This document shows positions 2,334 through 16,808 of a DNA stretch of 64,000 bases, in pieces. Numbering within the stretch: the stretch's first letter is position 1; each line of letters starts with the position of its first letter. The translations under genes and the position numbers were made by a program. The notes beneath the pieces were generated by a model. The model had not been told where the DNA came from. It made no database searches and saw only the letters and a program-made list of their open reading frames with translations. This DNA is from Chryseolinea serpens (lineage in GTDB: Bacteria > Bacteroidota > Bacteroidia > Cytophagales > Cyclobacteriaceae). Location: positions 496,001 through 560,000 of the forward strand of contig NZ_FQWQ01000004.1 in NCBI RefSeq assembly GCF_900129725.1, in the 5' to 3' direction.

Positions 2334-3124
2334 TTTGTTTTCTTTTGAGCGTGAAGGATCAACCGGGGTGAGGTGGCGACGTCGTAATCATTCAATTGAT
2401 AGTCGCCGAACACGGTGAGCAGCGTCAAGCCGTGCGCTTCGAACAAACCTTGAAAATCTTTCAATGCAAGTTTGGCCACCCGTTCGGTGTATTCGAAAGG
2501 TCCGTCTGCTTGCAGGTTGTCGATCACGATCTTTTTATAAAAATGCTTCTTGTCGGCATGCCGGGTGATGTGATAAGCGATGCCATCAATTTCTTTTTCT
2601 TCGCGGGGCACGAGGTGCGCCTCGGAGTAGGCCACGTTCAGGTAGTCCATCACCAATATGCCGCCGGGCTTCAGGGTGTTGGCGATGTTGCGGATCACGT
2701 CGTGGTTCTCTGCGTCGGTGTCGAAGTAGCCAAAGCTGGTGAAGAAGTTGAAGACGTAGTCGAAGTAGTTCATGCCAAAGGGCACGCGCATGTCGTGGCG
2801 GTAGAATTGGAGATTGGTGGTCTCAAATTGTCGCGCCGCCTGGATGCTGGACCCCGCCAGGTCAAGACCGGTAACATTGAATCCTTTCGACGCCAGAAAC
2901 TTTGCATGACGTCCCGCACCACAACCCAGGTCGAGCATACGCGCAGCCGGTTCGGGCTGGAGTTTGTCCAGCAATTCGTCTATAAAGTCTGCGGCTTCCT
3001 TTTGGCTGCGGTGGGCGTAGAGTTGGTGGTAGAACGAAGAGTCGAACCACTTTTTGAACCAGCCTGCCGGCGCAGCGTCGACCTGGTGTGCCAGGTTTTT
3101 CATATATCCCAGGTTGATCTTCAT
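2330..3124 (-). CDS. Class I SAM-dependent methyltransferase
   Basis: The 264-aa protein contains the SAM-binding motif I MLDLGCGAGRHAKFLASKGF near residues 63-82, followed by the acidic motif II GLDLAG, and a later motif around NIANTLKPGGILVMDYLN. This is the Methyltransf_25/11 type of Rossmann fold. The acceptor substrate cannot be told. The gene sits in the middle of a three-gene minus-strand operon: its ATG overlaps the frame-corrected stop of the DoxX-like gene by 4 bp and its stop overlaps the racemase-like ATG by 4 bp. Such tight coupling suggests a shared pathway, but none is recognisable. Confidence 0.88.
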   Translation of the reverse strand: MKINLGYMKNLAHQVDAAPAGWFKKWFDSSFYHQLYAHRSQKEAADFIDELLDKLQPEPAARMLDLGCGAGRHAKFLASKGFNVTGLDLAGSSIQAARQFETTNLQFYRHDMRVPFGMNYFDYVFNFFTSFGYFDTDAENHDVIRNIANTLKPGGILVMDYLNVAYSEAHLVPREEKEIDGIAYHITRHADKKHFYKKIVIDNLQADGPFEYTERVAKLALKDFQGLFEAHGLTLLTVFGDYQLNDYDVATSPRLILHAQKKTK

Positions 3125-3512
3125 TGCGCAGCGTTGGTTAAAGATTTAACATCATCGCTAACACGGGACCTGAAAATGGATGCGTTTCGCACGTACGCGG
3201 CGATCCACACGCCGCTGAGAATAATACCGGGAGCAACGGCACCGTTCCATGCGACAACTCAACCGCCATGGCACCACCAAAATATCCGGTCAGCAGAAGG
3301 AGGCCGATATTCATAGAGCGGTTATAAAGAAAGAATGCCACGAACAACAACTCCGCCACGCCAAGCCAGGGCAGGTAGAGGAGAAGTCCGATTTGTGTAA
3401 AGAGGTCCACTAAAGGTGGAGCAGCAGATAGTTTCATGATCGCCCCACCGCCAATGATCACGGTCATCAGAATGGAAGGGATCCAGGAGAGGATTTTTTT
3501 TCTTTTGTTCAT
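3121..3512 (-). pseudogene. DoxX-like membrane protein, apparent frameshift
   Basis: The uninterrupted reading frame (3138-3512, 124 aa) begins with a basic N-terminus and three hydrophobic segments typical of small DoxX-like proteins, but its last 30 or so residues turn polar and unlike the family. Moving to the neighbouring frame near 3238-3245 gives GIILSGVWIAAYVRNAS, a fourth membrane helix with the usual DoxX-like ending, and a stop at 3121-3123 that overlaps the methyltransferase ATG in ATGA. The restored gene therefore fits both the family and the operon. One missing base explains the break. I infer either a sequencing/assembly indel or a recent pseudogene. A perfect FNR-type box lies upstream. 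Confidence 0.75.
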
Positions 3513-3530
3513 ACTGTTTTATTTTTTGAA

Positions 3531-3574
3531 CAAAAGTATCGGCGCATCACAGCGCCGGCATTGATCTATATCAA
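3531..3574 (-). promoter_or_regulatory. FNR-type box and TAnnTTTG -7 element upstream of the DoxX-like operon
   Basis: Positions 3561-3574 hold TTGATCTATATCAA, a perfect match to the FNR consensus TTGAT-N4-ATCAA. On the minus strand TACTTTTG (3538-3531) matches the Bacteroidota -7 element TAnnTTTG. If transcription starts about four bases after that element, the box centre lies near -41, the class II activator position. No good -33 element is visible, as expected for an activator-dependent promoter. The adjacent Crp/Fnr gene is the obvious candidate regulator. Confidence 0.7.
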
Positions 3575-3593
3575 GATCGAAAGGAGCGAAGGA

Positions 3594-4175
3594 TTAGCGC
3601 TTGCGCGACTGAAGCTTGCGGATGCGGCTGAGGGTTTCCGGTGTAATGCCCAGGTAGCTGGCCAGCATGTGTTGTGGCACGCGCGCGGTAATGGAGGGAT
3701 AGGTCTTTATAAAATCGTCGTAACGCTCTTCGGCCGTGGCGGTGAGGGAATTGATGATGCGGGTGTCTTTGGCCGTGGCGCGCTTTTGGATGCCGGCCTG
3801 GAAGGACTTGGCGTAGCCGGGAACCTTGTCCATCAGCGTGAGATGACCAGTGAGGTCCATGAGCAACACTTCGGAGTCTTCGATGGCATCGATAAAAAAA
3901 CTGGCGGTGGTATCCGGGTTCATCCCCGACTTGTCGCTGACCCACCAATTCTCGGGAGCAAACTGGATGATGTGTTCCTTGCCTTTGTTGTCGATGACAT
4001 AACTCCTTAAAAATCCTTTTGCCACAAAAGCACCCACACGTGCCGCATCGCCCTCCCGCAACAAAAACTCTCCCTTCTTCAAGGTTCTGTGCGTGACCAC
4101 CGCAGCGATCTCGGCTTTGTCGTCATCCGATAAGGGAAAACGTTGTTCCAGGTAGGCGAATAGGGGTTCGTACAT
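3594..4175 (-). CDS. Crp/Fnr family transcriptional regulator
   Basis: This 193-aa protein has a cyclic-nucleotide-binding-type beta-barrel (about 20-115, including KKGEFLLREGD), a dimer helix, and a short C-terminal winged helix (about 145-190). The recognition helix reads TPETLSRIRK; the E-T-x-S-R arrangement is the same as in E. coli FNR and fits binding to TTGAT half-sites. The protein contains no cysteine, so it cannot carry an FNR iron-sulphur cluster, and the ligand is unknown. It is slightly shorter than canonical Crp, as is usual in Bacteroidota. It lies upstream of the DoxX-like operon on the same strand, with the FNR-type box in the 81-base gap between them. Confidence 0.9.
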   Translation of the reverse strand: MYEPLFAYLEQRFPLSDDDKAEIAAVVTHRTLKKGEFLLREGDAARVGAFVAKGFLRSYVIDNKGKEHIIQFAPENWWVSDKSGMNPDTTASFFIDAIEDSEVLLMDLTGHLTLMDKVPGYAKSFQAGIQKRATAKDTRIINSLTATAEERYDDFIKTYPSITARVPQHMLASYLGITPETLSRIRKLQSRKR

Positions 4176-5915: not shown

Positions 5916-6158
5916 TCTGTAATTTCCATTGGCCAAAGGCAATCTGAAATAGAGATTGAATTTTACGAATTAATTGAAGAAATTGGGAGGGAATCCGATG
6001 ATTGGTTCTTTGTGAAGGATTTTGCAAATGTCAGTACGAGATTCCCCGTCCCAAATATTGAGTTGATCCTTGCCCGCAAGGCAAGACAGACCCTTCCACG
6101 TTTAAGACAAGTACTGGCGTTGTTTTTTAATTGGATACTTAAAACTGAAGGGCTATGA
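5916..6158 (+). pseudogene. C-terminal remnant of an unrecognised gene upstream of cassette 1
   Basis: About 80 codons stay open from 5916 and end at a TGA (6156-6158) that overlaps the ATG of the following 128-aa gene in ATGA. The translation (for example DDWFFVKDFANVSTRFPVP and LARKARQTLPRLRQVLALF) looks like genuine protein, but there is no plausible start and an in-frame stop lies just upstream. The last third of this DNA is repeated, with disruptions, upstream of cassette 3. I infer the tail of a gene once translationally coupled to the 128-aa gene. Family not recognised. Confidence 0.45.
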
Positions 6159-6165
6159 AACATAA
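6089..6165 (+). repeat. Cassette leader repeat, copy 1
   Basis: This stretch, from GACCCTTCCACGTTTAAGA to just past the start codon of the 128-aa gene, is nearly identical to 15486-15559 in front of the third paralogue. The last part also resembles 12077-12100 in front of the second. In this copy it is still open coding sequence of the upstream remnant. Confidence 0.75.
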
Positions 6166-6541
6166 CAGTACAAAGATGCTACCATCAGGTGAAAGCGATT
6201 TTTTGCAGGACGATCCGCTGGGCAAGCACATCAAGAAGATACAATCTTTCAGTGATTTGGAGGAAGACGAAGACTTAATGCCGGTGGCGCAACGAGAGAT
6301 TGCCTGTGCCATCGCCGCGTTGACGGCCATCTACGAAAAAACAAAACGGCTACCCTATTTTGTCGCGCCCACACGAAGTGGAGGGGTAGGTCTAGAATAC
6401 CAGGTAGTCGGTATCGAGGCATACTTTCATTTTGATATTGACGGTTCGATTCAATTTTCTGCTATCGGTGATGGAAAACTGCTAAACAAGACAAGGTTTA
6501 CAAATCCAGCCGAAGCTTCAACCTTGATAGCCCATCTTTAG
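6155..6541 (+). CDS. 128-aa cassette protein, paralogue 1 of 3
   Basis: This 128-aa cytoplasmic protein is clearly homologous along its length to the products of 12096-12482 and 15549-15935. Shared blocks are LEEDEDxxPVAQREI (about 36-50), a helix ending near Tyr60, TRSGGVGLEY (about 73-82) and an FDxDG-type turn (about 93-97). Small proteins with a PTxxGGxxLEW-like strand often occur as the first gene of two-gene modules of unknown function; I infer an antitoxin- or immunity-like role but no biochemical activity. The start overlaps the stop of an upstream coding remnant. A truncated partner gene follows after 20 bases. Confidence 0.8.
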   Translation: MKHNSTKMLPSGESDFLQDDPLGKHIKKIQSFSDLEEDEDLMPVAQREIACAIAALTAIYEKTKRLPYFVAPTRSGGVGLEYQVVGIEAYFHFDIDGSIQFSAIGDGKLLNKTRFTNPAEASTLIAHL

Positions 6542-6561
6542 CCATATTGAACGTTGTTGGC

Positions 6562-7119
6562 ATGAAGTATAAAACTGGAGATAGAGTACCGAACGGCGAA
6601 GCTATGGTTCGGCGAATCAAAAGGGAGTGGATCAAAGAGAATCGAACCATTTCCCGCGAAGCTTTTCGCCCACGGAAGGATCGCAACGGCCAATTTGAAG
6701 ATGGCGTTTCTGTGGATATTAAGTCATGTTTAACCGAACCCATTGGTCATGACTATTGGAGCAACAAAAGGAAAATGGCCACGGCGGAATTTCTTTCGGA
6801 TGTCATAAATGCATGCCCGCCTTACGTTATCCTATACGATGGACGATCGCCATCTCACTGTATCATAGCCGGGGATATGGTTGCTTTGGATGACGATCCG
6901 GATACCCTTGCCAGAATAGCGGCAAGTGCAATATTGATCCATAATCCGTTTACCCAGAATCGTCGAATGTCGACTTTTAAGTTTCATTCATCTTTTAATG
7001 ACTTTGTCGGATTTGCCAAAGCAGCTTTAACGGCTTGCGCACCTACAGTTAACCCCGTCACCAAAAGAACCAAGATTCCGGTGCCTGCGAAATGCCACCA
7101 CGTCAATTCTATCTTATAA
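6562..7119 (+). CDS. Cassette 1 partner protein, 3' truncated
   Basis: The ATG at 6562 begins MKYKTGDRVP; an RRIKREW helix and AFRPRKDRNG followed by FEDGVSVDI resemble the second gene of widespread uncharacterised two-gene modules (an F-R-P-R...DG-hydrophobic-S-V pattern). I recognise no enzymatic motif. The frame is good protein to about position 6983, then runs about 45 codons antisense through the 3' end of the convergent permease gene. That tail is almost certainly not original, so the native C-terminus has been lost at the junction. The same MKYK start recurs at 15959 after paralogue 3. Confidence 0.6.
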   Translation: MKYKTGDRVPNGEAMVRRIKREWIKENRTISREAFRPRKDRNGQFEDGVSVDIKSCLTEPIGHDYWSNKRKMATAEFLSDVINACPPYVILYDGRSPSHCIIAGDMVALDDDPDTLARIAASAILIHNPFTQNRRMSTFKFHSSFNDFVGFAKAALTACAPTVNPVTKRTKIPVPAKCHHVNSIL

Positions 7120-9383
7120 GCAAAACTGTCGAGCCATTTCCGGGCAATGATATAACTAACGGGGAAGGCAATCAGGATGGCGATGAAGACCGTTTTAAAA
7201 AACTCGCCCGTCAAAAGATAAACGACTCTCCACACAGTCGATCCCAACACCTTCCTGATCCCAATTTCCTTTTTCTTTCGCTCCGCCGTAAACACAGCCA
7301 ACCCAAACAAGCCAAGACAGGAGATGACGATGGAGATCGCTGCAAAATATTTAGAAAGAATGGCCACCCTGTTTTCGGATTCATAGAGCGCCTGGTAGTC
7401 GCTGTCCAGGAATGAATATTCAAAGGCCACCCCCGGATTGTGTACGGCGTAGAGTCTACCAAGCTGTTCAAGCGTTTCCTGTTCACTTCCCGCCTTGATC
7501 TTGACCATAATTTTAGAAACCCTTTTGTTCAGACTCAAATCGAAAAAGAGGGGCTTGATCTCTTCATAAAGGGATTGGAAATGAAAATTTTTTGTCACGC
7601 CTATAATTTCCTGGTCCTCGTTCCAGATCCGGATCACTTTGCCAACCGGATCCTTAAGACCCATCACTTCCACAGCTTTCTCATTCAAAACCACTTTCGA
7701 TTCTTCGGAAGCGAAATTTCTCGAATAGGAGCGACCCTCTTTCATTTCGATGTCAAGCGTTTCAATAAAATCATAGCCACCCGCCAAGTCCGTAAATTCG
7801 ATTGCATGGTCTGCATCCTTGCCTTCCCAGGCGATGTCGGTGGTTCCACCCTGACGGTTGGTGATGCTATGCCTGAAGTTGGTAGCGTTAATCACGCCAG
7901 GGATCTTCTTTATTTCCTGCAGGCGTAGCTCAAGATCAGCCTCAAATGCCTGCTTGTCTTTGATGGCATCGTCGGCGCCCATTTCAAAATGGACAATATT
8001 GTCGCGAACGTAGCCGAGGTTCTTGGTCTGCACCAATTCAATTTGCTTGTACACGATCCAGGTGGAGATGATCAAAACGACGGATATCATGGATTGAAAA
8101 AGCACCAATCCCTTTCTTGTCCAAAGCTCGCCGATGTAAGTGTTCAGTTTACCCTTTAGCGCGGCGACCAGATTGAAATTCGAGAGATAAAGGGACGGAT
8201 AACTACCCGAAACAATTCCTGTAAGAATGGTTATCCCAAGGGCCCCAAGAATAAGCCTCGGATCAAAGCCAAGGGAAAGTTGTTTTCCTGTAACTTCATT
8301 AAACCAGGGAAGAAATAATCGGATCAGAACAATGGCGACGCCGAGAGACAACGAAGTCATCAACATCGATTCCAGGAGAAATTGAAAGACCAACGTCCTG
8401 CGTTTTGCTCCCATGACTTTTCTTACGCCGACTTCTTTAAATCGGCGCATGGCTTTTGCCGTAGACAGGTTCATGAAATTGATGCAAGCATTGAGCAGGA
8501 TGAACAGGGCAACAATGATAAATAACGTTACATAGGCCATTCGCCCGCCGACGGGTTTTCCATTCTCATATCGGTTGTGGAGGTATTTTTCGGAATAGCG
8601 TTGAAGAAACAGCGTGGCCTCTGCGTCTTTATTCTTGCTTTTTATGAACCCGGAGATCTTCGTATTGAACTGATCAACATCGGTGTCCTTTCTCAACACC
8701 ATGTAGGTGCTGGGGTCGCTATTGAGCCAGTTTTCCAGCTTCGGATTTCGCTCAAGAAACAATTCATAGTTGAGTAGAATATCAGACTTCAAAGAAGCGT
8801 TCGGTGGAAGCTGCTTATAAATTCCGGAAACGGTAAAGAGGCCATCGAGTCCTTCATGCTTCCATTCAACGATCTTGCCGACCACGTCCTCCGTTGTATT
8901 GAAGAGCTTCATGGCCAAGTCTTCCGAGAGGAGAATATTATATTTATCCGAAAAGGCTGTTTTCTGATCACCTTGAATAAAACTATAGGAAAATACATTG
9001 AAATAATCCTTGCTCACAAATTGACCTTCCGTCTTGATCCGCGTGCCGTTATAGGAGATCAGCCCTTTCCCCGAGGACCAGTCCGAGTTTGTGACCGAGG
9101 CGGCATACTCCACGTCCGGCATTTCCTTCGCTAAGGCCTCTGCCAACCGTGCAGGCGTACCCTCCATCGTAAAAACCCCAGACGAGGTGGGTGTGTTTTT
9201 CATTACCTGGAAAAGATGCCGGTCTTTTTCATGGAACTTGTCGACCGTAAGCTCGTCGTTCACCCAGAGATAGATGAATAGCGCGGCGGTGAGGCCGGTG
9301 GAGAGGCCGATCAGATTGATGCAGAATGTGCCGTAGTATTTCTTGAAACTTCTGCAGATCAGGATTAAGCTGTGTCGCAACAT
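6984..9383 (-). CDS. ABC-type transporter permease (MacB/FtsX family, two-module)
   Basis: I choose the ATG at 9383, giving 799 aa. After a first membrane helix (INLIGLSTGLTAALFIYLW) comes a large extracytoplasmic MacB-type core domain, then three FtsX helices, then a second helix-core-FtsX unit, with the hallmark segments RRFKEVGVRKVMGAKR and KKKEIGIRKVLGS preceding the membrane blocks and a typical ending NPTKSLKDE. This layout is the common Bacteroidota permease of about 800 aa that works with a LolD-like ATPase encoded elsewhere. Likely role: mechanotransmission or export of peptides, antibiotics or lipoproteins; substrate unknown. The stop lies inside the misread tail of the cassette 1 partner. 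Confidence 0.92.
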   Translation of the reverse strand: MLRHSLILICRSFKKYYGTFCINLIGLSTGLTAALFIYLWVNDELTVDKFHEKDRHLFQVMKNTPTSSGVFTMEGTPARLAEALAKEMPDVEYAASVTNSDWSSGKGLISYNGTRIKTEGQFVSKDYFNVFSYSFIQGDQKTAFSDKYNILLSEDLAMKLFNTTEDVVGKIVEWKHEGLDGLFTVSGIYKQLPPNASLKSDILLNYELFLERNPKLENWLNSDPSTYMVLRKDTDVDQFNTKISGFIKSKNKDAEATLFLQRYSEKYLHNRYENGKPVGGRMAYVTLFIIVALFILLNACINFMNLSTAKAMRRFKEVGVRKVMGAKRRTLVFQFLLESMLMTSLSLGVAIVLIRLFLPWFNEVTGKQLSLGFDPRLILGALGITILTGIVSGSYPSLYLSNFNLVAALKGKLNTYIGELWTRKGLVLFQSMISVVLIISTWIVYKQIELVQTKNLGYVRDNIVHFEMGADDAIKDKQAFEADLELRLQEIKKIPGVINATNFRHSITNRQGGTTDIAWEGKDADHAIEFTDLAGGYDFIETLDIEMKEGRSYSRNFASEESKVVLNEKAVEVMGLKDPVGKVIRIWNEDQEIIGVTKNFHFQSLYEEIKPLFFDLSLNKRVSKIMVKIKAGSEQETLEQLGRLYAVHNPGVAFEYSFLDSDYQALYESENRVAILSKYFAAISIVISCLGLFGLAVFTAERKKKEIGIRKVLGSTVWRVVYLLTGEFFKTVFIAILIAFPVSYIIARKWLDSFAYKIELTWWHFAGTGILVLLVTGLTVGAQAVKAALANPTKSLKDE

Positions 9384-9568
9384 TGCCGAAGGGGTTAGTT
9401 TAAGCAAAACTTGCGATTGTGAAAATGGTTACACTGGAGGATGATTTAAATTTCCTTGGTTAGGATGTGCATGGGTGCTGTGGGTCGGCCAGTTATTTAG
9501 GCCCAAAAAATACCCATTTCCTTGAATCTGCATGGAACTTGGCGTGCCTCAAGGGCACCTGAAGCTGA

Positions 9569-10294
9569 TTACTGAGAAATTACTTCAAGCTTCATCTTTT
9601 CAAGATTTCTTTCAAAAAGCAACCGTTCGTCCACATCAAGTTTATCGATATTCTGATTGACAAAACTCAAATACTTGTCCCGCTCGGAAGTATTGCCTTT
9701 GAGGTGTTGTGCCAGCATGAGATAGATGGCCGCGGCCAGTGTGGTATTGTTCACGAACTTGAAATCCATGGAATGCGACAGCAACAAAAAGCCTTCGGTG
9801 ATGTTCCCTCGCTCGATGAGAACAGAACCACGCGTGCCGCGAAACATGTTTTCTCCCGGAACTTCTTTAAGCGCCATGGCCGAATAGTGATTGGCCAAAT
9901 CGATCTTGTTCAAGATCAGGTAGAGCCAGGCAGCGGTGTTGTAGAAATGGCCTGCAAGACGTTTGAGTTCCTTTTCATGCAGACTGCTTTCGAGGGGCAA
10001 GAGGATGTCGAGTCCTTTTTGGGGTTCGCCCGTTTTCAGAAGAACCGTGGCGATGGTGAGGCGAATGGTTTTGTTTTTGGGGTATTGGCTTTCGTACTGT
10101 TGATAAATGGCAAGCGCTTCGCCGAATTCTTTTCTTTCCATATGTTCCTGAGCATCCCAGAGAGCGTCTACTTTCAACCATTTTTCTACTTCCTGTCTTT
10201 TAAGAAAGGGGAGTTTCAACAAGGCCAGACCGTCTGTTGGAATACGAATTCCCATGACCAGGGAATGAAACGGAAGGAGATTTAGCAATCCCAA
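9569..10294 (-). CDS. C-terminal TPR part of a frameshifted M50 peptidase-like protein
   Basis: This frame starts ALGLLNLLPF and contains a TDGLALLKLPF segment, which is the second half of an M50 active site (membrane helix with N-x-x-P followed by a DG motif). It continues into TPR-like helices (for example GEALAIYQQYESQYP) to the end. It has no proper start codon. It belongs with the reading frame at 10282-10779, from which it is separated by one apparent frameshift near 10311-10330. The intact protein would be a membrane metalloprotease with a TPR tail. See the upstream entry. Confidence 0.65.
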   Translation of the reverse strand: MGLLNLLPFHSLVMGIRIPTDGLALLKLPFLKRQEVEKWLKVDALWDAQEHMERKEFGEALAIYQQYESQYPKNKTIRLTIATVLLKTGEPQKGLDILLPLESSLHEKELKRLAGHFYNTAAWLYLILNKIDLANHYSAMALKEVPGENMFRGTRGSVLIERGNITEGFLLLSHSMDFKFVNNTTLAAAIYLMLAQHLKGNTSERDKYLSFVNQNIDKLDVDERLLFERNLEKMKLEVISQ

Positions 10295-10779
10295 TGCATT
10301 GGCCAGTATAAAGCCGAGGCGGGAGCAAAAGTGACTTGATCGTTCGCCCCAAAGAAGTTAAAGCCAAACAGACTGAAGAATACAAATGCGATCAGGCCAT
10401 TGCACAACACTCCTCCCATCATATAAAAGGCGTATCGAAGTCTCAGGAAACTGGGGTGGTTAAATGTCGCAGTGACACGCGCTCCGCGGAAGGAGGAGTT
10501 GACGACAACACGTACGCCATAGATCTGTGCTCTATAAAGCTCATGCCCTCTGCCCAATATCATTCTTCGCGGGGTTCCGCCAACGAGCTTCGCTGCCAAT
10601 ATGTGGCCTATCTCGTGAAAGATGGTGGCCAATTTAGCGGCCACTAGAAATATTCCGCAATTGATAAAGGCATTGGATAGGGATGAAAAATCGTCGCCGA
10701 GAAATCCTAGGACAGTTCCTGCTACAATGAGAATCCAGTAGGGGAGAGGGAAGAGTGTAAGAAATACTTTTTTGGCCAT
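10282..10779 (-). CDS. N-terminal part of a frameshifted M50 family peptidase-like protein
   Basis: From the ATG at 10779 (a GTG at 10821 is also possible) the protein has a hydrophobic helix, then a second helix with the zinc motif HEIGH in ATIFHEIGHILAAKLVGG, as in site-2 proteases, and another hydrophobic segment after a basic loop. The frame ends abruptly after ALYWPMHW, whereas the next frame supplies LGFILANALGLLNLLPF with the expected Asn-Pro/DG second half. Family knowledge: M50 enzymes cleave transmembrane substrates inside the membrane. The break may be a real mutation or an assembly indel. The gene stands alone in the accessory region. Confidence 0.7.
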   Translation of the reverse strand: MAKKVFLTLFPLPYWILIVAGTVLGFLGDDFSSLSNAFINCGIFLVAAKLATIFHEIGHILAAKLVGGTPRRMILGRGHELYRAQIYGVRVVVNSSFRGARVTATFNHPSFLRLRYAFYMMGGVLCNGLIAFVFFSLFGFNFFGANDQVTFAPASALYWPMHWDC

Positions 10780-11075
10780 CGATCGGAAAAGCTTAAAATA
10801 GTACTTCGCACCTAACGACACAAGCTAAGACGGGCTTGAAAGAAAAGAACCGCCTTTGTTCGCACTTATTTCATTGACGGTTCCCTCCCGTAGCTTGAAT
10901 CGAAATCCGACTGATCTTATCTTGAAATTCGACTTATTTTAACTTAAGATCCGACTGATAATGTTAAGATCAGTGGTTATTTCATCTTAAACAAAGTCGG
11001 ACAATTTTATTTTTCCGCCTGGGAAAAACGCGTTGTTTTTCGCCCGGAATTTTTCTTTCTCACCGGCTGGAAAGT
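10780..11075. other. Intergenic region with a repeated 11-bp motif
   Basis: No gene is visible. ATCCGACTGAT occurs at 10905-10915 and again at 10949-10959, with a related AATTCGACTTA between them. These could be binding sites for a regulator of the M50 gene promoter, but no family is recognisable. Confidence 0.4.
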
Positions 11076-11106
11076 AAAAAAGCCAGCCCGCTGCAGCAGA
11101 CTGGCT
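11076..11106 (-). terminator. Intrinsic terminator of the DUF4469 gene
   Basis: On the minus strand AGCCAG (11106-11101) pairs with CTGGCT (11086-11081) and runs into a six-T tract. An inner GCTGCAGC palindrome can extend the hairpin. It lies 30 bases after the stop of the DNA-binding protein gene. Confidence 0.7.
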
Positions 11107-11135
11107 ATATCGAGAGGGTATACGGAGGAGCGAGG

Positions 11136-11831
11136 CTACTTCACCGTTAGATCATCTAAAAGAAATCCTTCGCGAATTTCCTTGTTGCCGAGCATGATCG
11201 TGCGCAACGACAGGGAATACTCGCCCGCTACCAGGGTAGCCGGGATGATGAAGATGATTTTTGAGGGTGTGGCATCGGCCACCGTTTCTGCTTTGGTCAC
11301 GGTGCCGTTGAGGGAGGTGAAGAATACGCCTTGTGCGGCGTCGCCGGCGTCGAACTTGAGGGCGCTGCCCACGATGTGGCCGATGCCGCCGGGTGTGGCG
11401 ATGTCGCTCTCCGTTTTCGAGGTGAGGTCCTTAAACGATTGGAGCAGGGGCAGGGGAATGATGGCCTGCACTTTCTCTACCTTCACCTGCCCCACAATTT
11501 GCTTCAGGCGTTTGCCTGCTTTCATGCGCACTCTGACCTCATGCCGCGAGGCATCATAGGAATCGCCGGCGTTGTTAAACTTTCCCATGATGGACATGGA
11601 AATGTTGAAAAGGGGCGTTACAATGTTGTGACCATCTTTGAGCAATTGAGCCATGGCCAGGGCCAGTTCCTCCATAACCGAAAGCGCTTCCGCCTTCGTC
11701 ACCGTAGAACCCCGGCTGATCATGAGGTCAACCACCTCTTCCATCGATTTGGTGCTGATGGGCTGCACTACCGCCATCTGATCATCCGGATCAGGTGTTA
11801 AACGGTTTTCAAACAAGGAGTATTTAATCAT
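11136..11831 (-). CDS. HU-like DNA-binding protein with C-terminal DUF4469 domain
   Basis: This 231-aa protein has an N-terminal domain of about 120 residues with the helical start and beta-arm pattern of the Bacteroidota HU-like family (MIKYSLFENRLTPDPDDQMA start, then a helical TVTKAEALSVMEELA block), and a C-terminal Ig-like beta domain with GGIGHIVGSALKFD, which matches DUF4469. Such proteins are common and often multicopy in Bacteroidota. They are annotated as DNA-binding; a nucleoid or regulatory role is inferred. The start is the ATG at 11831. It has its own terminator and stands alone. Confidence 0.85.
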   Translation of the reverse strand: MIKYSLFENRLTPDPDDQMAVVQPISTKSMEEVVDLMISRGSTVTKAEALSVMEELALAMAQLLKDGHNIVTPLFNISMSIMGKFNNAGDSYDASRHEVRVRMKAGKRLKQIVGQVKVEKVQAIIPLPLLQSFKDLTSKTESDIATPGGIGHIVGSALKFDAGDAAQGVFFTSLNGTVTKAETVADATPSKIIFIIPATLVAGEYSLSLRTIMLGNKEIREGFLLDDLTVK

Positions 11832-11908
11832 GGCTACCCCATTTACTATTTACGTACCAAAACTGAAATGCGTTTTCAGGCCGGAAACGGAGCCTCACAT
11901 CCTAGCAG

Positions 11909-11945
11909 CCGACGAAATATCGTCGGACCGACGAAATATCGTTGG
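11909..11945. repeat. Pair of near-palindromic 18-bp boxes
   Basis: CCGACGAAATATCGTCGG (11909-11926) is followed after one base by CCGACGAAATATCGTTGG (11928-11945). Each box is itself a near-perfect inverted repeat, and the two lie 19 bp apart start to start. They sit between the DUF4469 gene and cassette 2 and could be operators or part of a hairpin. Confidence 0.6.
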
Positions 11946-12076
11946 CGAGGCGCCTTGTCTATTGATGGCTTTCTTGTGGAGGAAATATTTCGGACCTTTA
12001 ATCGTATTACTTAAAGACAGCTTGGTTTGTCTTTGGCCCTCGAAGTTTAAGATCGAAGTAATGTTGTTGGATGAGA

Positions 12077-12100
12077 ACACTTAAACCAAAGGGTTATGAA
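12077..12100 (+). repeat. Cassette leader repeat, copy 2 (short)
   Basis: The 24 bases ending just inside the start of paralogue 2 are identical to 15530-15553 in front of paralogue 3 and similar to the end of the copy 1 leader. The part further upstream is only weakly similar (GTTTAAGATC remains). Confidence 0.7.
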
Positions 12101-12482
12101 TTATAATGAAACAGAAATGCCTTCTCAAAGCGAAGGCAATCCAGTGAAGACCGATCCGCTATCGGAAAGCATCGAACTGATACGGTCTTTTGCGTTGCTT
12201 GAAGAAGACGAGGATTCAATGCCTGTGGCGCAGAGAGAAATAGAGCGTGCTATTACTATTGTCGAGGCCGTTTATGCAAAGTTGAGACTGGTACCATTCT
12301 TCGTTGTTGCCACGCGAAGTGGCGGTGTTGGTGTAGAATATAGGATAGGAGGGACCGAGGCATATTATCACTTTGATCCCTTCGGCGATATGGACTTCTC
12401 AGCGATCAAGGGCGTTGAACTGTTGAAGCACATATTTTTTACGAATCTTGACGAGGCACCCAAATTATTGGATGGCATTTAG
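12096..12482 (+). CDS. 128-aa cassette protein, paralogue 2 of 3
   Basis: Same length and block order as the products at 6155 and 15549: LLEEDEDSMPVAQREIERA, then TRSGGVGVEY, then an HFDPFGD turn and a variable C-terminus. It is cytoplasmic, with no catalytic motif. It is the most diverged of the three. Its downstream neighbour differs completely from that of paralogue 1: a zeta-toxin-like kinase begins 51 bases after the stop. This supports a role as the conserved, possibly neutralising, component of a modular two-gene system, but that is inference. Confidence 0.8.
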   Translation: MNYNETEMPSQSEGNPVKTDPLSESIELIRSFALLEEDEDSMPVAQREIERAITIVEAVYAKLRLVPFFVVATRSGGVGVEYRIGGTEAYYHFDPFGDMDFSAIKGVELLKHIFFTNLDEAPKLLDGI

Positions 12483-12533
12483 ATCGATTGGATCTCCGCC
12501 AAAGGTGTTATGTAGAATCTGTTAGCAGCATTT

Positions 12534-13460
12534 ATGAACAATGAGTTTGCAAGACTATTAAGGGATCAGCATCAGGTAGGGCATTTTCTTAACAGCGTGT
12601 TGAAAATCGATCCAAAAGAGTTTAAAGATATAGCTTATCGCATTATTACTTGCGAGACGGGAATTATTGATGGTCTGGAAAATCCAACGTCAAGATCTGC
12701 GAAGTTCCGGGATCCGAGATATCAGAATGACAAGGAAAGACTCGCTTTGCGGGAGAGGATCGTTAAGGAACTCTTCGAAATGCCGTTGCTTGATAGGGAT
12801 GATAAATTAAGACTTGGAAAGGGTGGCGCCAGGCCGATAGAAGTTAAGTCGGAGAGAAAGGCCTTTATAATAATTGGACTGCCAGCTTCCGGGAAATCGG
12901 CTGTCGCTTTTCGATTTGCCAATGAATTTGGGGCGATGATACTAGACGCTGACTTCTCCAAGAGGAAACTTCCGGAGTTTGCCAAATATCCATGGGGAGC
13001 TTCTATTGTTCACAAGGAGGCATCGGAAATGATTTTCAGCAGGGACAAGACTGGTTTTGAGTCACTATTCTATAAGGCAACGCGAGCGAATTATAATCTG
13101 GTGATCCCAAAGATTGGTGCCAGTCATGTTAAGGTTCTATGGATTTGTAATTTGTTGAAAGAAATGAAATATGAAGTGCATCTCACGTTGGTCTATCTGA
13201 GCAGGGAAAAAGCAACTTTAAGAGCACTGACGCGTTATAAAAATACGGACCGATATGTTCCACTCGCGCGCATTTTTGACGTCTATTCTCAAAATCCCTG
13301 CCTGACATACTTTTTTTTGAAGAACAAGAAGGGCGATAGATTCGATTCTTTCGGCGTCATCAACACAGATGTTCCTGTTGGCGAACAACCGAAATGTTCG
13401 GATTTTCTAGGGGATAGCCCAGCGAAAAAATATGAAATTGATTTAGATCTGATAATTTAG
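12534..13460 (+). CDS. Zeta-toxin-like P-loop kinase
   Basis: This 308-aa protein has a Walker A motif GLPASGKS (115-122) after a strand of hydrophobic residues, then ILDADFSKRKLPEF (137-150) and WGASIVHKEAS (154-164), the arrangement of zeta toxins, which phosphorylate UDP-N-acetylglucosamine or related nucleotide sugars and block wall synthesis. A helical N-terminal extension of about 110 residues precedes the kinase. Zeta toxins are normally neutralised by a small epsilon antitoxin; here the flanking candidates are the 128-aa gene upstream and a 92-aa basic protein starting 5 bases downstream. Toxicity is inferred, not shown. Confidence 0.8.
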   Translation: MNNEFARLLRDQHQVGHFLNSVLKIDPKEFKDIAYRIITCETGIIDGLENPTSRSAKFRDPRYQNDKERLALRERIVKELFEMPLLDRDDKLRLGKGGARPIEVKSERKAFIIIGLPASGKSAVAFRFANEFGAMILDADFSKRKLPEFAKYPWGASIVHKEASEMIFSRDKTGFESLFYKATRANYNLVIPKIGASHVKVLWICNLLKEMKYEVHLTLVYLSREKATLRALTRYKNTDRYVPLARIFDVYSQNPCLTYFFLKNKKGDRFDSFGVINTDVPVGEQPKCSDFLGDSPAKKYEIDLDLII

Positions 13461-13465
13461 AAATC

Positions 13466-13744
13466 ATGAAAAAAACAATTAGGAAGAGTTCATTACCCAC
13501 AAAAACAACAGTAAAGAAGAAAGGCGTTTTGAAAACAACGAAGAAGAAAAAGATTTCCTTGAAAAAGTTCGACTATGAGAATTATCCGAAGATCCGGTTA
13601 AGTTATGCCGAGTATGTACGCAGGCACGCGTTAGCCGGCAAGATCATGGATGAGATTGAGGAAGAGGAGCTTGAAAATATTAAAGGCGTGGTTGAAAGGG
13701 TTTTGGCGGAGCGGGCTAAGGATGCTGAGAATGGCACCTCATAG
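13466..13744 (+). CDS. Small basic protein downstream of the zeta-like kinase
   Basis: This 92-aa protein has a very Lys/Thr-rich N-terminal half and an acidic helical C-terminal half (DEIEEEELENIKGVVERVL). It starts 5 bases after the zeta-like kinase stop, so the two are co-transcribed and probably translationally linked. No family is recognised. The basic tail could bind nucleic acid and the acidic helix could bind the toxin, which makes it an antitoxin candidate. Confidence 0.65.
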   Translation: MKKTIRKSSLPTKTTVKKKGVLKTTKKKKISLKKFDYENYPKIRLSYAEYVRRHALAGKIMDEIEEEELENIKGVVERVLAERAKDAENGTS

Positions 13745-13749
13745 CTGCA

Positions 13750-14028
13750 TCACAGATATTTGCCAAGCGTCATCATTGCCGTGAGCGTGGCGTAAAAAAG
13801 CAGGAGCAGCAAATTGGCTAGCCTCTTTGATCTACGACTTTTCGGCGAAGTTGCTTTCCTGAGCAGAAAACCAAAGTCTCTATTGCTGAGCTTGTCAAAT
13901 TTGCCATGGTAGGAATAAAATGGAGGTACGGGTGTTTCTTTGTCTTTTTCCAGGCAGTTGAATTTAAAGACTTGATAGCGCTTCATATAGAAGAGCCAAA
14001 ACGACGCAATCGCTAATACTTCTAGCAT
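13750..14028 (-). CDS. Small membrane protein of unknown function
   Basis: This 92-aa product has a hydrophobic segment at the very N-terminus (LEVLAIASFWLFY) and a second one near the C-terminus (LANLLLLLFYATLTAMMTLG), separated by about 50 polar residues with a basic SPKSRRSKR stretch. The ATG at 14028 is clear. It converges on the basic protein gene with a 5-base gap. No family recognised. Two-helix topology and location in a toxin-like cluster are all that can be said. Confidence 0.5.
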   Translation of the reverse strand: MLEVLAIASFWLFYMKRYQVFKFNCLEKDKETPVPPFYSYHGKFDKLSNRDFGFLLRKATSPKSRRSKRLANLLLLLFYATLTAMMTLGKYL

Positions 14029-14135
14029 AACTCAGATTAGGCCAAAGGTATTTACTGCATACGCTTTACCAAAGGAAAACTTCCTATTCCATTTTTGAAG
14101 CGCACGCGTCGTGCGCACAAAAGCCAAAGTCGGCG

Positions 14136-14456
14136 CTATAATTTTTTGTTGCGTTTTGACGACGGTTTGTCGTAGATCAGCCCCAAATCGCACTCGCTCA
14201 GCGCCTTAAAGAACTCACACAACACATTCACCCGGTGCGCCATCTCGCCAAAGTCGAGGGGGAGGGCGTCGTGGTGGTGTTCTACGTAGCTGTGGTAGAG
14301 TTCCAGGAGGGCTTCGCGGTAGTCGGCGGGGCGGGCCACGTTGAGGAGGAGGCGGAGGTGGTCGAGGGCGGTGTAGTCGCCGGCGTCGTGGTGTGGGTGG
14401 GGCAGGAGCCATTGGCTGGGTTTGGCGGGTTTGTGGGGTTTGATGGGCTTGGTCAT
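14136..14456 (-). CDS. Conserved hypothetical protein divergent from the XRE regulator
   Basis: Starting at the ATG at 14456 the product is 106 aa: a Pro/Lys/His-rich N-terminus (MTKPIKPHKPAKPSQWLL) followed by a helical part with YREALLELYHSYV and LCEFFKALSECD. Reading further upstream only adds unlikely sequence. The DNA is strongly GC-rich, unlike the neighbouring AT-rich cassettes. It is transcribed away from the XRE gene, and similar helical proteins are often found beside such regulators. Function unknown. Confidence 0.5.
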   Translation of the reverse strand: MTKPIKPHKPAKPSQWLLPHPHHDAGDYTALDHLRLLLNVARPADYREALLELYHSYVEHHHDALPLDFGEMAHRVNVLCEFFKALSECDLGLIYDKPSSKRNKKL

Positions 14457-14583
14457 GACCGTGGTGGTTTGGTTGTGCGCACAAGGAGGGCCAACGCCAG
14501 GGCATAATCCATGCCCAGCGGAATATTCCATGCCCACAGCCGTTTTCAATCGGATAGTTTAGCGCCTGGGCACAGGATTTTTT

Positions 14584-14591
14584 TATATTTG
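14584..14591 (+). promoter_or_regulatory. Predicted -7 element for the XRE gene
   Basis: TATATTTG matches the Bacteroidota -7 consensus TAnnTTTG. It lies five bases before the ATG at 14597, so the transcript would be leaderless or nearly so. A TTTA about 22 bases upstream could be the -33 element. Confidence 0.5.
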
Positions 14592-14596
14592 CTACC

Positions 14597-15023
14597 ATGA
14601 CAACCCACGATTCCTCCAAAGAAACCAAACCCGTCCACCACGGCCGGAATATCAAACGCTTCCGCGAAATGTTCGGCCTGAAGCAAGATGGCCTAGCCGC
14701 CAGGTTGGGACCGGATTGGACGCAGAAAGGTTTCGCAGTTGGAGGCGAGTGAGTTGGTTGAATCTAAGTTGCTTCAGCAGATTGCAGAAGCGTTGAAAGT
14801 TCCGGTGGAGGCGATTGAGAATTTTACGGAAGAGGGTGCGAATACGTATTTCAACAGCTTTCATGACAACAGTGGGCCCTCTGCATTTCAATACAACAAT
14901 TCAGCTCCCACAGATAAATATGAGGAGATGGTGGAGAAAATTGAAGGGCTCTACAAAGAGTTGTTGAAAGAGAAGCAGGCGAGGATTGAGCTTTTGGAGC
15001 GGTTGCTAGCTGAAAAGAAATAA
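14597..15023 (+). pseudogene. XRE-family transcriptional regulator, apparent frameshift
   Basis: The ATG at 14597 begins a helix-turn-helix domain (RNIKRFREMFGLKQDGLAAR then LGPDWTQK). That frame stops at 14750-14752. Switching frame at about 14726-14730 continues KVSQLEASELVESKLLQQIA, the normal remainder of this Bacteroidota XRE family, with LKVPVEAIENFTEEGA and a C-terminal coiled coil (YEEMVEKIEGLYKELLKEK). Family members usually read QKK at the junction, so a 2-base loss in an A-run is the simplest explanation. Its stop overlaps the next ATG by one base. If real, the regulator is inactive. Confidence 0.75.
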
Positions 15024-15358
15024 TGACTAAGCCGGCAGATGAAGTCTGGCAAAAGCTAGTGGACTTTGTCGAGTCCACTACCAGCGTTGAGGTTAATGAG
15101 GACTCAATTGTTTTCGATGATTTGAGTATAAATGGATTGGATACTTATTCGTTCATGGAACAGTTTGCTGAAGAGTTTAAGGTAGACTTGTCGGATTTAG
15201 ATTTAAGTAAGAACGTGTTGTCTGAATATGAGTTGGGTAATATTTTTTTAACTTTCTATCGGGCTCTTTTTCGCAGGAAGGCCTTGAAGCGGCGAAGTTT
15301 TAAAGTTTTGCATCTCTATCATGTAATTGAAAAGAGACATTGGTTTGACCCTGATTAA
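15023..15358 (+). CDS. Acyl-carrier-like DUF1493 family protein
   Basis: This 111-aa acidic protein has the layout of DUF1493: an N-terminal helix (VWQKLVDFVES), an INGLDTYSFMEQFAEEF segment where acyl carriers have the DSL serine region, and VDLSDLDLSKNV. Gly-Leu-Asp replaces the phosphopantetheine Ser context, so carrier function is unlikely. The start overlaps the stop of the XRE gene by one base, which makes the two a coupled pair. Function unknown. Confidence 0.6.
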   Translation: MTKPADEVWQKLVDFVESTTSVEVNEDSIVFDDLSINGLDTYSFMEQFAEEFKVDLSDLDLSKNVLSEYELGNIFLTFYRALFRRKALKRRSFKVLHLYHVIEKRHWFDPD

Positions 15359-15485
15359 GATGAAAGAGATCGTAAGGCAGACGGAATACATTATTGTATA
15401 AAAAGAAGTTAAAAGGACTTGATGGTGAACCGTTATTAAGCGACTTTAGATTAGTTACAACGGCCTCTTAGGCTGTATTAGGATT

Positions 15486-15559
15486 GACCCTTCCACGTTT
15501 AAGATAAGTTTTGGCGTTGTTTTAATTGGACACTTAAACCAAAGGGTTATGAAACATAA
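15486..15559 (+). repeat. Cassette leader repeat, copy 3
   Basis: This is almost identical to 6089-6165. Here the frame that is open in copy 1 is broken by an in-frame TAA and a 2-base T-run deletion, so the leader is no longer coding. Its persistence up to the start codon may reflect a promoter or simply recent duplication. Confidence 0.75.
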
Positions 15560-15935
15560 TAACAGAGAGATGCTATCTCCAAACGACATACCGTTTGTGC
15601 CGAGCGATTCGCTGGCTGAAAACATTAAAACAATCCAATCTTACAGTTCGCTGGAGGAAGATGAAGACTTTCTGCCGGTAGCACAACGGGAGATCCAGCG
15701 CGCCGTTTCCGCGTTGGAAGCCATTTACGCGACGGCGAAACTACTGCCTTTCTTTATTGTCCCCACACGAAGTGGTGGTGTTGGTTTGGAGTATAAAGTA
15801 AAGGGCACAAAAGCGAACTATCGCTTTGATCCTGATGGCTTGATGTACTTTACTGTTATGAGAGATGTGACAGTCCTAAAACGGGCAATGCTCACAAGCC
15901 CAGCCGAAGCCCCAGCCTTACTAGAATCTATTTAG
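15549..15935 (+). CDS. 128-aa cassette protein, paralogue 3 of 3
   Basis: Closest to paralogue 1 at both ends (MKHN start, PAEAxxLxxxx end) with the shared LEEDEDFLPVAQREI and PTRSGGVGLEY blocks and an FDPDG turn. It is an intact reading frame although its downstream partner is reduced to a stub at 15959 and the leader has lost coding capacity. Retention of an intact gene without its partner is what is expected of an orphan antitoxin or immunity gene. No biochemical function is visible. Confidence 0.8.
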   Translation: MKHNNREMLSPNDIPFVPSDSLAENIKTIQSYSSLEEDEDFLPVAQREIQRAVSALEAIYATAKLLPFFIVPTRSGGVGLEYKVKGTKANYRFDPDGLMYFTVMRDVTVLKRAMLTSPAEAPALLESI

Positions 15936-15958
15936 CCAACATCACAACGTTGTTTGTT

Positions 15959-16042
15959 ATGAAGTATAAGATTGGTTGGTTTACATTTCAACAAGCAACA
16001 ATTTGTTTTATTGGTGAAGCCAAGGAGGAGCAACAATATTGA
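15959..16042 (+). pseudogene. Stub of the cassette partner gene
   Basis: MKYKIG at 15959-15976 matches the start of the cassette 1 partner (MKYKTG), and the spacer between the 128-aa gene and this ATG is also similar in both. After six codons the similarity ends and the frame runs into the 3' end of the convergent collagen-like gene, stopping at 16040-16042. I infer that the partner was deleted or replaced when the neighbouring module arrived. Confidence 0.55.
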
Positions 16043-16808
16043 GTTCAGTTTCAGCATCTGTTCCAATTGGTCCAGCGAACCCTCCCGGCGCCCCTGGGCC
16101 TCCTGCTGCGCAATCGTTTCCTCCTGGAGCGCCAGGGCCGGGTTGTCCAGGATGGCCATCGTGTCCTTTGCTAGCTAGCAGTGTTATAAACTGCATAGCT
16201 ACCCCTAAATCAATAACGGTGTCACCCGGCCAAATATCAACGATCAATTTTGCGCCGCTACCTCCATGCCCTGCGTATCCTCCGTTGCCACCCTGGCCTC
16301 CGTTACCACACGAACGAAATGGGGAATTTCTGTTCCCCCCAATTTCACCCTTGCCCCCATTGCCTCCATTGCCTCCGTTGCCACCATTAGAGTGAATATT
16401 CAAGCTTCCTATTGCAATCAACCCCAATTTGACTTCAATAATCCGCGCATTTTCTCCACGTTGACCATTTAGTCCGTTAACTCCTTGTGAGCCGTTGATG
16501 CCTGTTGGTGCTTGCGACCACCCTGTCCTCCATGGATCAGCGGGATTTTGTAATGGTGCCGAGGATCCATTCCTTCCATCACTGCTAATTTGTGCATTAA
16601 GGCCGACTGAGAAATTGTCTATTCTCAATTTGCAATGAGTTATAGAATCGTCCAGAATGATCGTCGAATTGTTACCCATTTTCAGTTGAAAGAAGTAAAC
16701 GGATGTTGCTCTAATCACAAAGACTTCGTTGTCTAATAATTCATAGTTCTTTATGATGATTTCGTAATTGTCATAAATGGTTTTTAAATTTTCAGTTCTC
16801 ATACACAT
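16008..16808 (-). CDS. Glycine-rich collagen-like protein next to AIPR
   Basis: This 266-aa protein has a non-repetitive N-terminal half (about 1-75), then long Gly-Asn-Gly and Gly-X-Y runs (for example GGNGGNGGNGGKGEIGG and GHPGQPGPGAPGGN) up to a short hydrophobic C-terminus. There is no signal peptide, so it is probably cytoplasmic, which is unusual for collagen-like sequences. It begins 29 bases after the stop of the AIPR gene on the same strand and is probably co-transcribed. A structural or phage-sensing scaffold is conceivable; nothing in the sequence proves it. AT-rich in its N-terminal part, like AIPR. Confidence 0.7.
   Translation of the reverse strand: MCMRTENLKTIYDNYEIIIKNYELLDNEVFVIRATSVYFFQLKMGNNSTIILDDSITHCKLRIDNFSVGLNAQISSDGRNGSSAPLQNPADPWRTGWSQAPTGINGSQGVNGLNGQRGENARIIEVKLGLIAIGSLNIHSNGGNGGNGGNGGKGEIGGNRNSPFRSCGNGGQGGNGGYAGHGGSGAKLIVDIWPGDTVIDLGVAMQFITLLASKGHDGHPGQPGPGAPGGNDCAAGGPGAPGGFAGPIGTDAETELNIVAPPWLHQ

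Follow-up and report, generated by a model that had tools for sequence, protein, structure and literature searches.

Why should three copies of one small gene stand in front of three different downstream sequences, and which gene is the constant part of such a module? The question is raised by a stretch of 64,000 nucleotides from Chryseolinea serpens (contig NZ_FQWQ01000004.1, positions 496,001 to 560,000; hereafter the window), in which an earlier note, made from sequence alone, recognised three 128-aa paralogues with different partners and proposed an antitoxin or immunity module. We call the 128-aa genes A (copies 1 to 3, in window order) and the partner of copy 1 B. The module is real, and to it we add a link to the defence candidate PDC-M32, a reversal of which element is constant, an ADP-ribosyltransferase (ART) reading of B, and conserved leaders of orphan A genes. 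The A-B pair probably works as antidote and poison, since the fold predicted for B is that of ADP-ribosylating enzymes.

Window A and B are divergent members of two widespread families

The three A genes are open reading frames (ORFs) of 128 aa each. Their alignment is gap-free; the other two are 49 and 51% identical to copy 1, and the LEEDED, PVAQREI, and TRSGGVG blocks noted earlier are invariant across all three. At third codon positions identity was 52% (67/128) between copies 1 and 3, 43% (55/128) between copies 1 and 2, and 38% (49/128) between copies 2 and 3. In the source genome (8.36 Mb, 99.33% complete, 10 contigs), these were the only A members, even with a broad profile, and profile searches found a single B gene.

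Direct searches with the window proteins did not find relatives of the family: copy 2 had no match among 145 other related genomes, plasmids, or phages, and window B gave no convincing relative on plasmids. A probe composed for a suspected B-like family matched two plasmid genes, one in Hymenobacter (L049) and one in Limnohabitans (L050). Immediately upstream of each match lies a gene whose last domain resembles the 128-aa protein, the L050 comparison alone being weak (probability 18%). The Hymenobacter sequences, when searched against plasmids, returned five records for A and three for B, all three within the five. Five A sequences, run against the genome collection, yielded 74 pattern matches, 45 of them confirmed as A loci, and record titles place these in Bacteroidetes, Planctomycetota, Acidobacteria, Chloroflexi, Nitrospirae, proteobacterial lines, and others.

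Independent profiles were iterated on the collected loci, window rows excluded, and run against a set of 2,191 ORFs that included those of the window. Among the window ORFs, the A profile matched only the three 128-aa genes (independent E-values of 2.9e-7 for copy 3, 1.4e-5 for copy 2, and 3.0e-4 for copy 1) and the B profile matched the copy-1 partner alone (6.2e-5). With broader profiles, window B improved to 2.4e-7 and copies 2 and 3 matched at 6.0e-4 and 3.3e-6, while copy 1 dropped out at 1e-3. On this profile homology, window A and B are divergent members of families A and B. Window A lacks the W-D-x-Y-G motif that is near-invariant in other A members; LEEDED occupies its position, with a short deletion. 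Scans of A and B members against Pfam and NCBIfam gave nothing above cut-off.

In relatives, B and not the gene upstream of A is the constant partner

The neighbors of A, whose tabulation the earlier note had proposed, are not random. In a survey of 296 Bacteroidota genomes, the source genome included, B stood directly downstream in 17 of the 19 A places outside that genome (exceptions L110 and L112), and in L104, L106, and L114 it was present only as a short ORF of 65 to 74 aa. All 10 B places outside the source genome had A directly upstream; eight coincide with A survey places, and L126 and L127 have A by the broader profile alone, these broader neighbor profiles having been iterated on the same loci in which they count neighbors. 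Across the genome-collection loci, B was found by profile in 35/45, two (L081 and L091) had a divergent B-like gene downstream, and eight had no B, one of which (L064) ends at a contig end. The divergent type, B2 (five sequences, grouped by eye), matched B with a profile-profile probability of 95.4%, single members giving 2.6 to 79%. In relatives A precedes B, with ends overlapping or touching; within the window this order is found at copy 1 and fails at copies 2 and 3.

Upstream of A, the neighborhood varies. TIGR04255-like genes were found there in 28/45 genome-collection loci (five as fragments or cut) and directly upstream in 4/19 Bacteroidota places outside the source genome; NCBIfam gave this name to 17 of 21 hand-chosen upstream proteins. 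A 240-aa family occupied the position in 3/45 loci. Hymenobacter plasmid operons (L049, L051 to L053) have the order DUF4209-A-B, DUF4209 being described as a HEPN family (PMC3710099), and three near-identical Hymenobacter loci among the 45 carry a long upstream ORF that is, with equal length, the annotated DUF4209 protein of L049. In L051 the DUF4209 protein additionally has a match to PDC-S39, a PADLOC candidate (E 4.2e-18). Other A-B pairs, such as L063, L077, L105, and L107, have no recognised TIGR04255-like gene in the flank examined. Profiles for the TIGR04255-like and 240-aa families, the only two sought (no SecB search was made), found neither in the window; no TIGR04255-like gene was found in the source genome, but control genomes gave no signal either.

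In relatives, then, B is constant and the variable element lies upstream of A. An antitoxin or immunity module built on the 128-aa family and its partners stands as the best reading. The earlier idea, in which the first gene is held constant and the second is exchanged, is not supported.

The partner of copy 1 has a predicted ADP-ribosyltransferase fold

The B ORF, with the FRPR and DGVSV motifs noted before, was listed as 6547-7119 (190 aa) from a TTG at 6547, with its first ATG at 6562; these starts lie 5 and 20 bp behind copy 1. From 6984 on, its last ~44 codons overlap the 3' end of an FtsX-like permease gene encoded on the opposite strand. The full ORF had matches in 23 of 146 non-own genomes, all from residue 119 on, a confinement explained by this overlap, and the two observations together indicate a true length of about 130 aa for B.

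The structure predicted for positions 6562-6981 (pLDDT 89.3) has the ART fold, as judged by fold matches of the model. An arginine, a serine, and a histidine are near-invariant among B sequences. We infer that B is an NAD-dependent toxin of ART fold, in which R17/R18, S50, and H99 would line the active site. Relative to the RNA 2'-phosphotransferase KptA/Tpt1, B is shorter and aligned to one part of the enzyme at 4 to 17% identity, and a phosphotransferase role is not expected.

Relation to PDC-M32 and other described systems

The earlier note knew of no described system with the 128-aa component, a statement that does not hold against PADLOC-DB 2.0.0, which lists the relatives' pair, with candidate status, as PDC-M32A and PDC-M32B. 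At E ≤ 0.01, one PDC-M32A model was matched by 38/43 A relatives and one PDC-M32B model by 11/30 B sequences (window included); the L050 protein, from Limnohabitans, matches PDC-M32A over almost the full length (E 4.6e-86). Neither window A nor window B reached this threshold with the PDC-M32 models, copy 1 coming nearest (E 0.042) and copies 2 and 3 and B giving none. Hence, we refrain from classing the window genes as PDC-M32; their kinship to it is shown by way of the intermediate relatives that connect them. PDC-M32 and A-B agree in their two domains and in the order of these, but window A corresponds only to the C-terminal domain (128 aa vs. a model of 375 positions), without the N-domain and W-D-x-Y-G. 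PDC entries are described as hypothetical phage defence candidates (PMC12429752, PMC11514479). For PDC-M32 we found one mention in the literature, among Sinorhizobium prophages, where we saw no functional test, a further search for one not having been made.

Among characterised systems, CmdTAC is described as an ART toxin, an antitoxin, and a SecB-like chaperone (PMC11618068), and a three-part logic of ART-fold effector, small antitoxin, and third protein may be shared. The possible likeness to A-B is one of this logic, and no third gene was recognised at copy 1. Structural scores of B were weak against TreTu-TriTu, described as an ART effector with its immunity protein (PMC10469887), and also against KreTA, which its description sets apart, KreT being reported as a RegB-like RNase and not an ART (PMC12487901).

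Orphan A genes retain a candidate operator

Over the 60 bp that precede the ATG, counting ungapped columns only, the A leaders share 88% (50/57, copies 1 and 3), 81% (46/57, copies 2 and 3), and 76% (41/54, copies 1 and 2) identity, in agreement with the leader DNA common to the copies that had been claimed for them. Each contains TTTAAG and CTTAAA separated by 28 to 31 bases, a pattern found three times in the window vs. 0.10 expected from shuffles (Table 1). The longer GTTTAAG-N(20-42)-ACTTAAA has three matches in the genome, exactly the three A leaders. As its reversed control is commoner, with nine matches, the placement at leaders and not the number of matches is informative. RNA folding of the three leaders was no better than for shuffles, and we read the repeat as a candidate DNA operator.

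Table 1. Features of the A-B locus in the window
Feature	Position	Strand	Description	Basis
Leader inverted repeat, copy 1	6101..6143	+	TTTAAG...CTTAAA	Pattern search, shuffles
A, copy 1	6155..6541	+	128 aa, putative antitoxin/immunity protein	ORF list, alignment
B, partner of copy 1	6562..7119	+	Putative ART-fold toxin	Profile match about 6592-6933
FtsX-like permease gene	6984-9407	-		
Leader inverted repeat, copy 2	12046..12085	+	TTTAAG...CTTAAA	Pattern search, shuffles
A, copy 2	12096..12482	+	128 aa, without B	
Zeta-toxin-like P-loop kinase	12534..13460	+	308 aa	Pfam Zeta_toxin, E 6.8e-11, 42.4 bits vs. cut-off 22.3
Basic ORF behind kinase	13466..13744	+	92 aa	ORF list
Leader inverted repeat, copy 3	15498..15538	+	TTTAAG...CTTAAA	Pattern search, shuffles
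A, copy 3	15549..15935	+	128 aa, without intact B	
Remnant of B start behind copy 3	15959..15976	+	Six codons, MKYKIG	Sequence comparison

The three downstream sequences differ as first reported: the FRPR/DGVSV ORF, the kinase with its basic ORF, and six codons. Behind copy 3, MKYKIG corresponds to MKYKTG in copy 1 and is followed by dissimilar sequence; behind copy 2, there is no established trace of B. The better reading of copies 2 and 3 is that each is a pair from which B was lost or always absent.

Solo A genes also occur on viral contigs, where only one of nine A loci has B and the other eight (L136 to L140, L142 to L144) have no recognised B adjoining. Some of these A genes stand alone as ORFs of ~100 aa (e.g., L137, L139, and L142, the A of L139 and L142 being identical), and the eight may be phage-borne antidotes. 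On the Acetobacter plasmid L054, a gene at 2926-3819 has two tandem A domains without B, and the next gene is annotated as SspB-like.

Such orphans could be more than relics. Copies 2 and 3 may be kept as antitoxins against B of plasmids or phages, an anti-addiction array with which the open frames of all three A genes, their conserved leaders, blocks that stay invariant while silent sites diverged, and the solo A genes of viral contigs are consistent. The same subfamily has no known foreign B, however, and neither the unmatched copy 2 nor window B points to a foreign counterpart in the searches above, so we regard such cross-protection as unlikely.

The zeta-like kinase 51 bp behind copy 2, with an apparent P-loop, GLPASGKS (by eye), invites a second alternative, in which A would serve broadly as an antitoxin or chaperone, neutralising B at copy 1 and the kinase at copy 2. 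Company of several kinds fits this, A being found beside DUF4209, TIGR04255, and SspB-like genes, as does a small P-loop protein (L139:2246-2680, LRGLPGSGKT, by eye) about 300 bp upstream of the solo A on a viral contig. The latter is the only hint outside the window of a kinase near A, L142 being the same sequence in the compared parts. Against it, B is the constant partner in relatives, and at 11 A loci without B no downstream ORF looked P-loop kinase-like by eye, no kinase profile having been run on the loci. Searches of 97 related genomes, of plasmids, and of solved structures returned no relative of the kinase, and neither of its neighbors (12096-12482 and 13466-13744) matched an antitoxin model of Pfam, PADLOC, or NCBIfam, though a divergent antitoxin may have escaped these. 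Lacking both relatives and a recognised antitoxin, it is treated as an independent neighbor, most likely a unit separate from copy 2, and exchangeable toxins appear distinctly improbable.

Equally doubtful is that A and B are subunits of a sensor or of an RNA- or DNA-modifying complex that needs an upstream third gene and is dead here, for which the frequent TIGR04255-like genes upstream of A and their NCBIfam names, the failure to find one in the source genome (with the silent controls noted above), and the run of the B ORF into antisense sequence would speak, but in some relatives no such gene was recognised in the sequence flanking A-B.

Elsewhere in the window, an HU-like DNA-binding protein with DUF4469 (11136-11831, minus strand; Pfam 7.7e-28 and 1.2e-16) is encoded upstream of copy 2. 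An XRE-like helix-turn-helix gene (14598-15022, by eye), seemingly split between two frames around 14730, adjoins an ORF with a DUF1493 match (15023-15358; Pfam E 1.8e-4), and directly behind copy 3 lies a glycine-rich, collagen-like ORF (16008-16808, minus strand, by eye).

A proposed antidote and poison

That A is an antitoxin or immunity protein and B an ART-fold toxin is the reading we favor, at somewhat better than even confidence. A, produced first, would be the cognate protein that binds B, and the module may control itself through the leader repeat as binding site. At copy 1 the pair would be at its minimum, lacking the gene or domain (TIGR04255, HEPN, or fused N-domain) that stands upstream elsewhere and may serve there as a sensor or chaperone. 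Copies 2 and 3 would be duplicates of A and its leader that lost B, of which six codons persist at copy 3, and would thereby be orphan antitoxins controlled in the same way as copy 1. More tentatively, and with odds we put well below even, A-B could be a widespread immune core of an ART-fold effector and its antidote, with TIGR04255, DUF4209-HEPN, and the fused N-domain as interchangeable upstream sensors, whose orphan antidotes are carried by phages and bacterial islands, here under the original operator.

These results give a candidate biochemistry, an ADP-ribosyltransferase fold, to a defence candidate that we met only in a database entry and one prophage listing, identify the fixed core (A-B) and the variable upstream part of a PDC-M32-type pair, and direct attention to orphan antidotes in phages.
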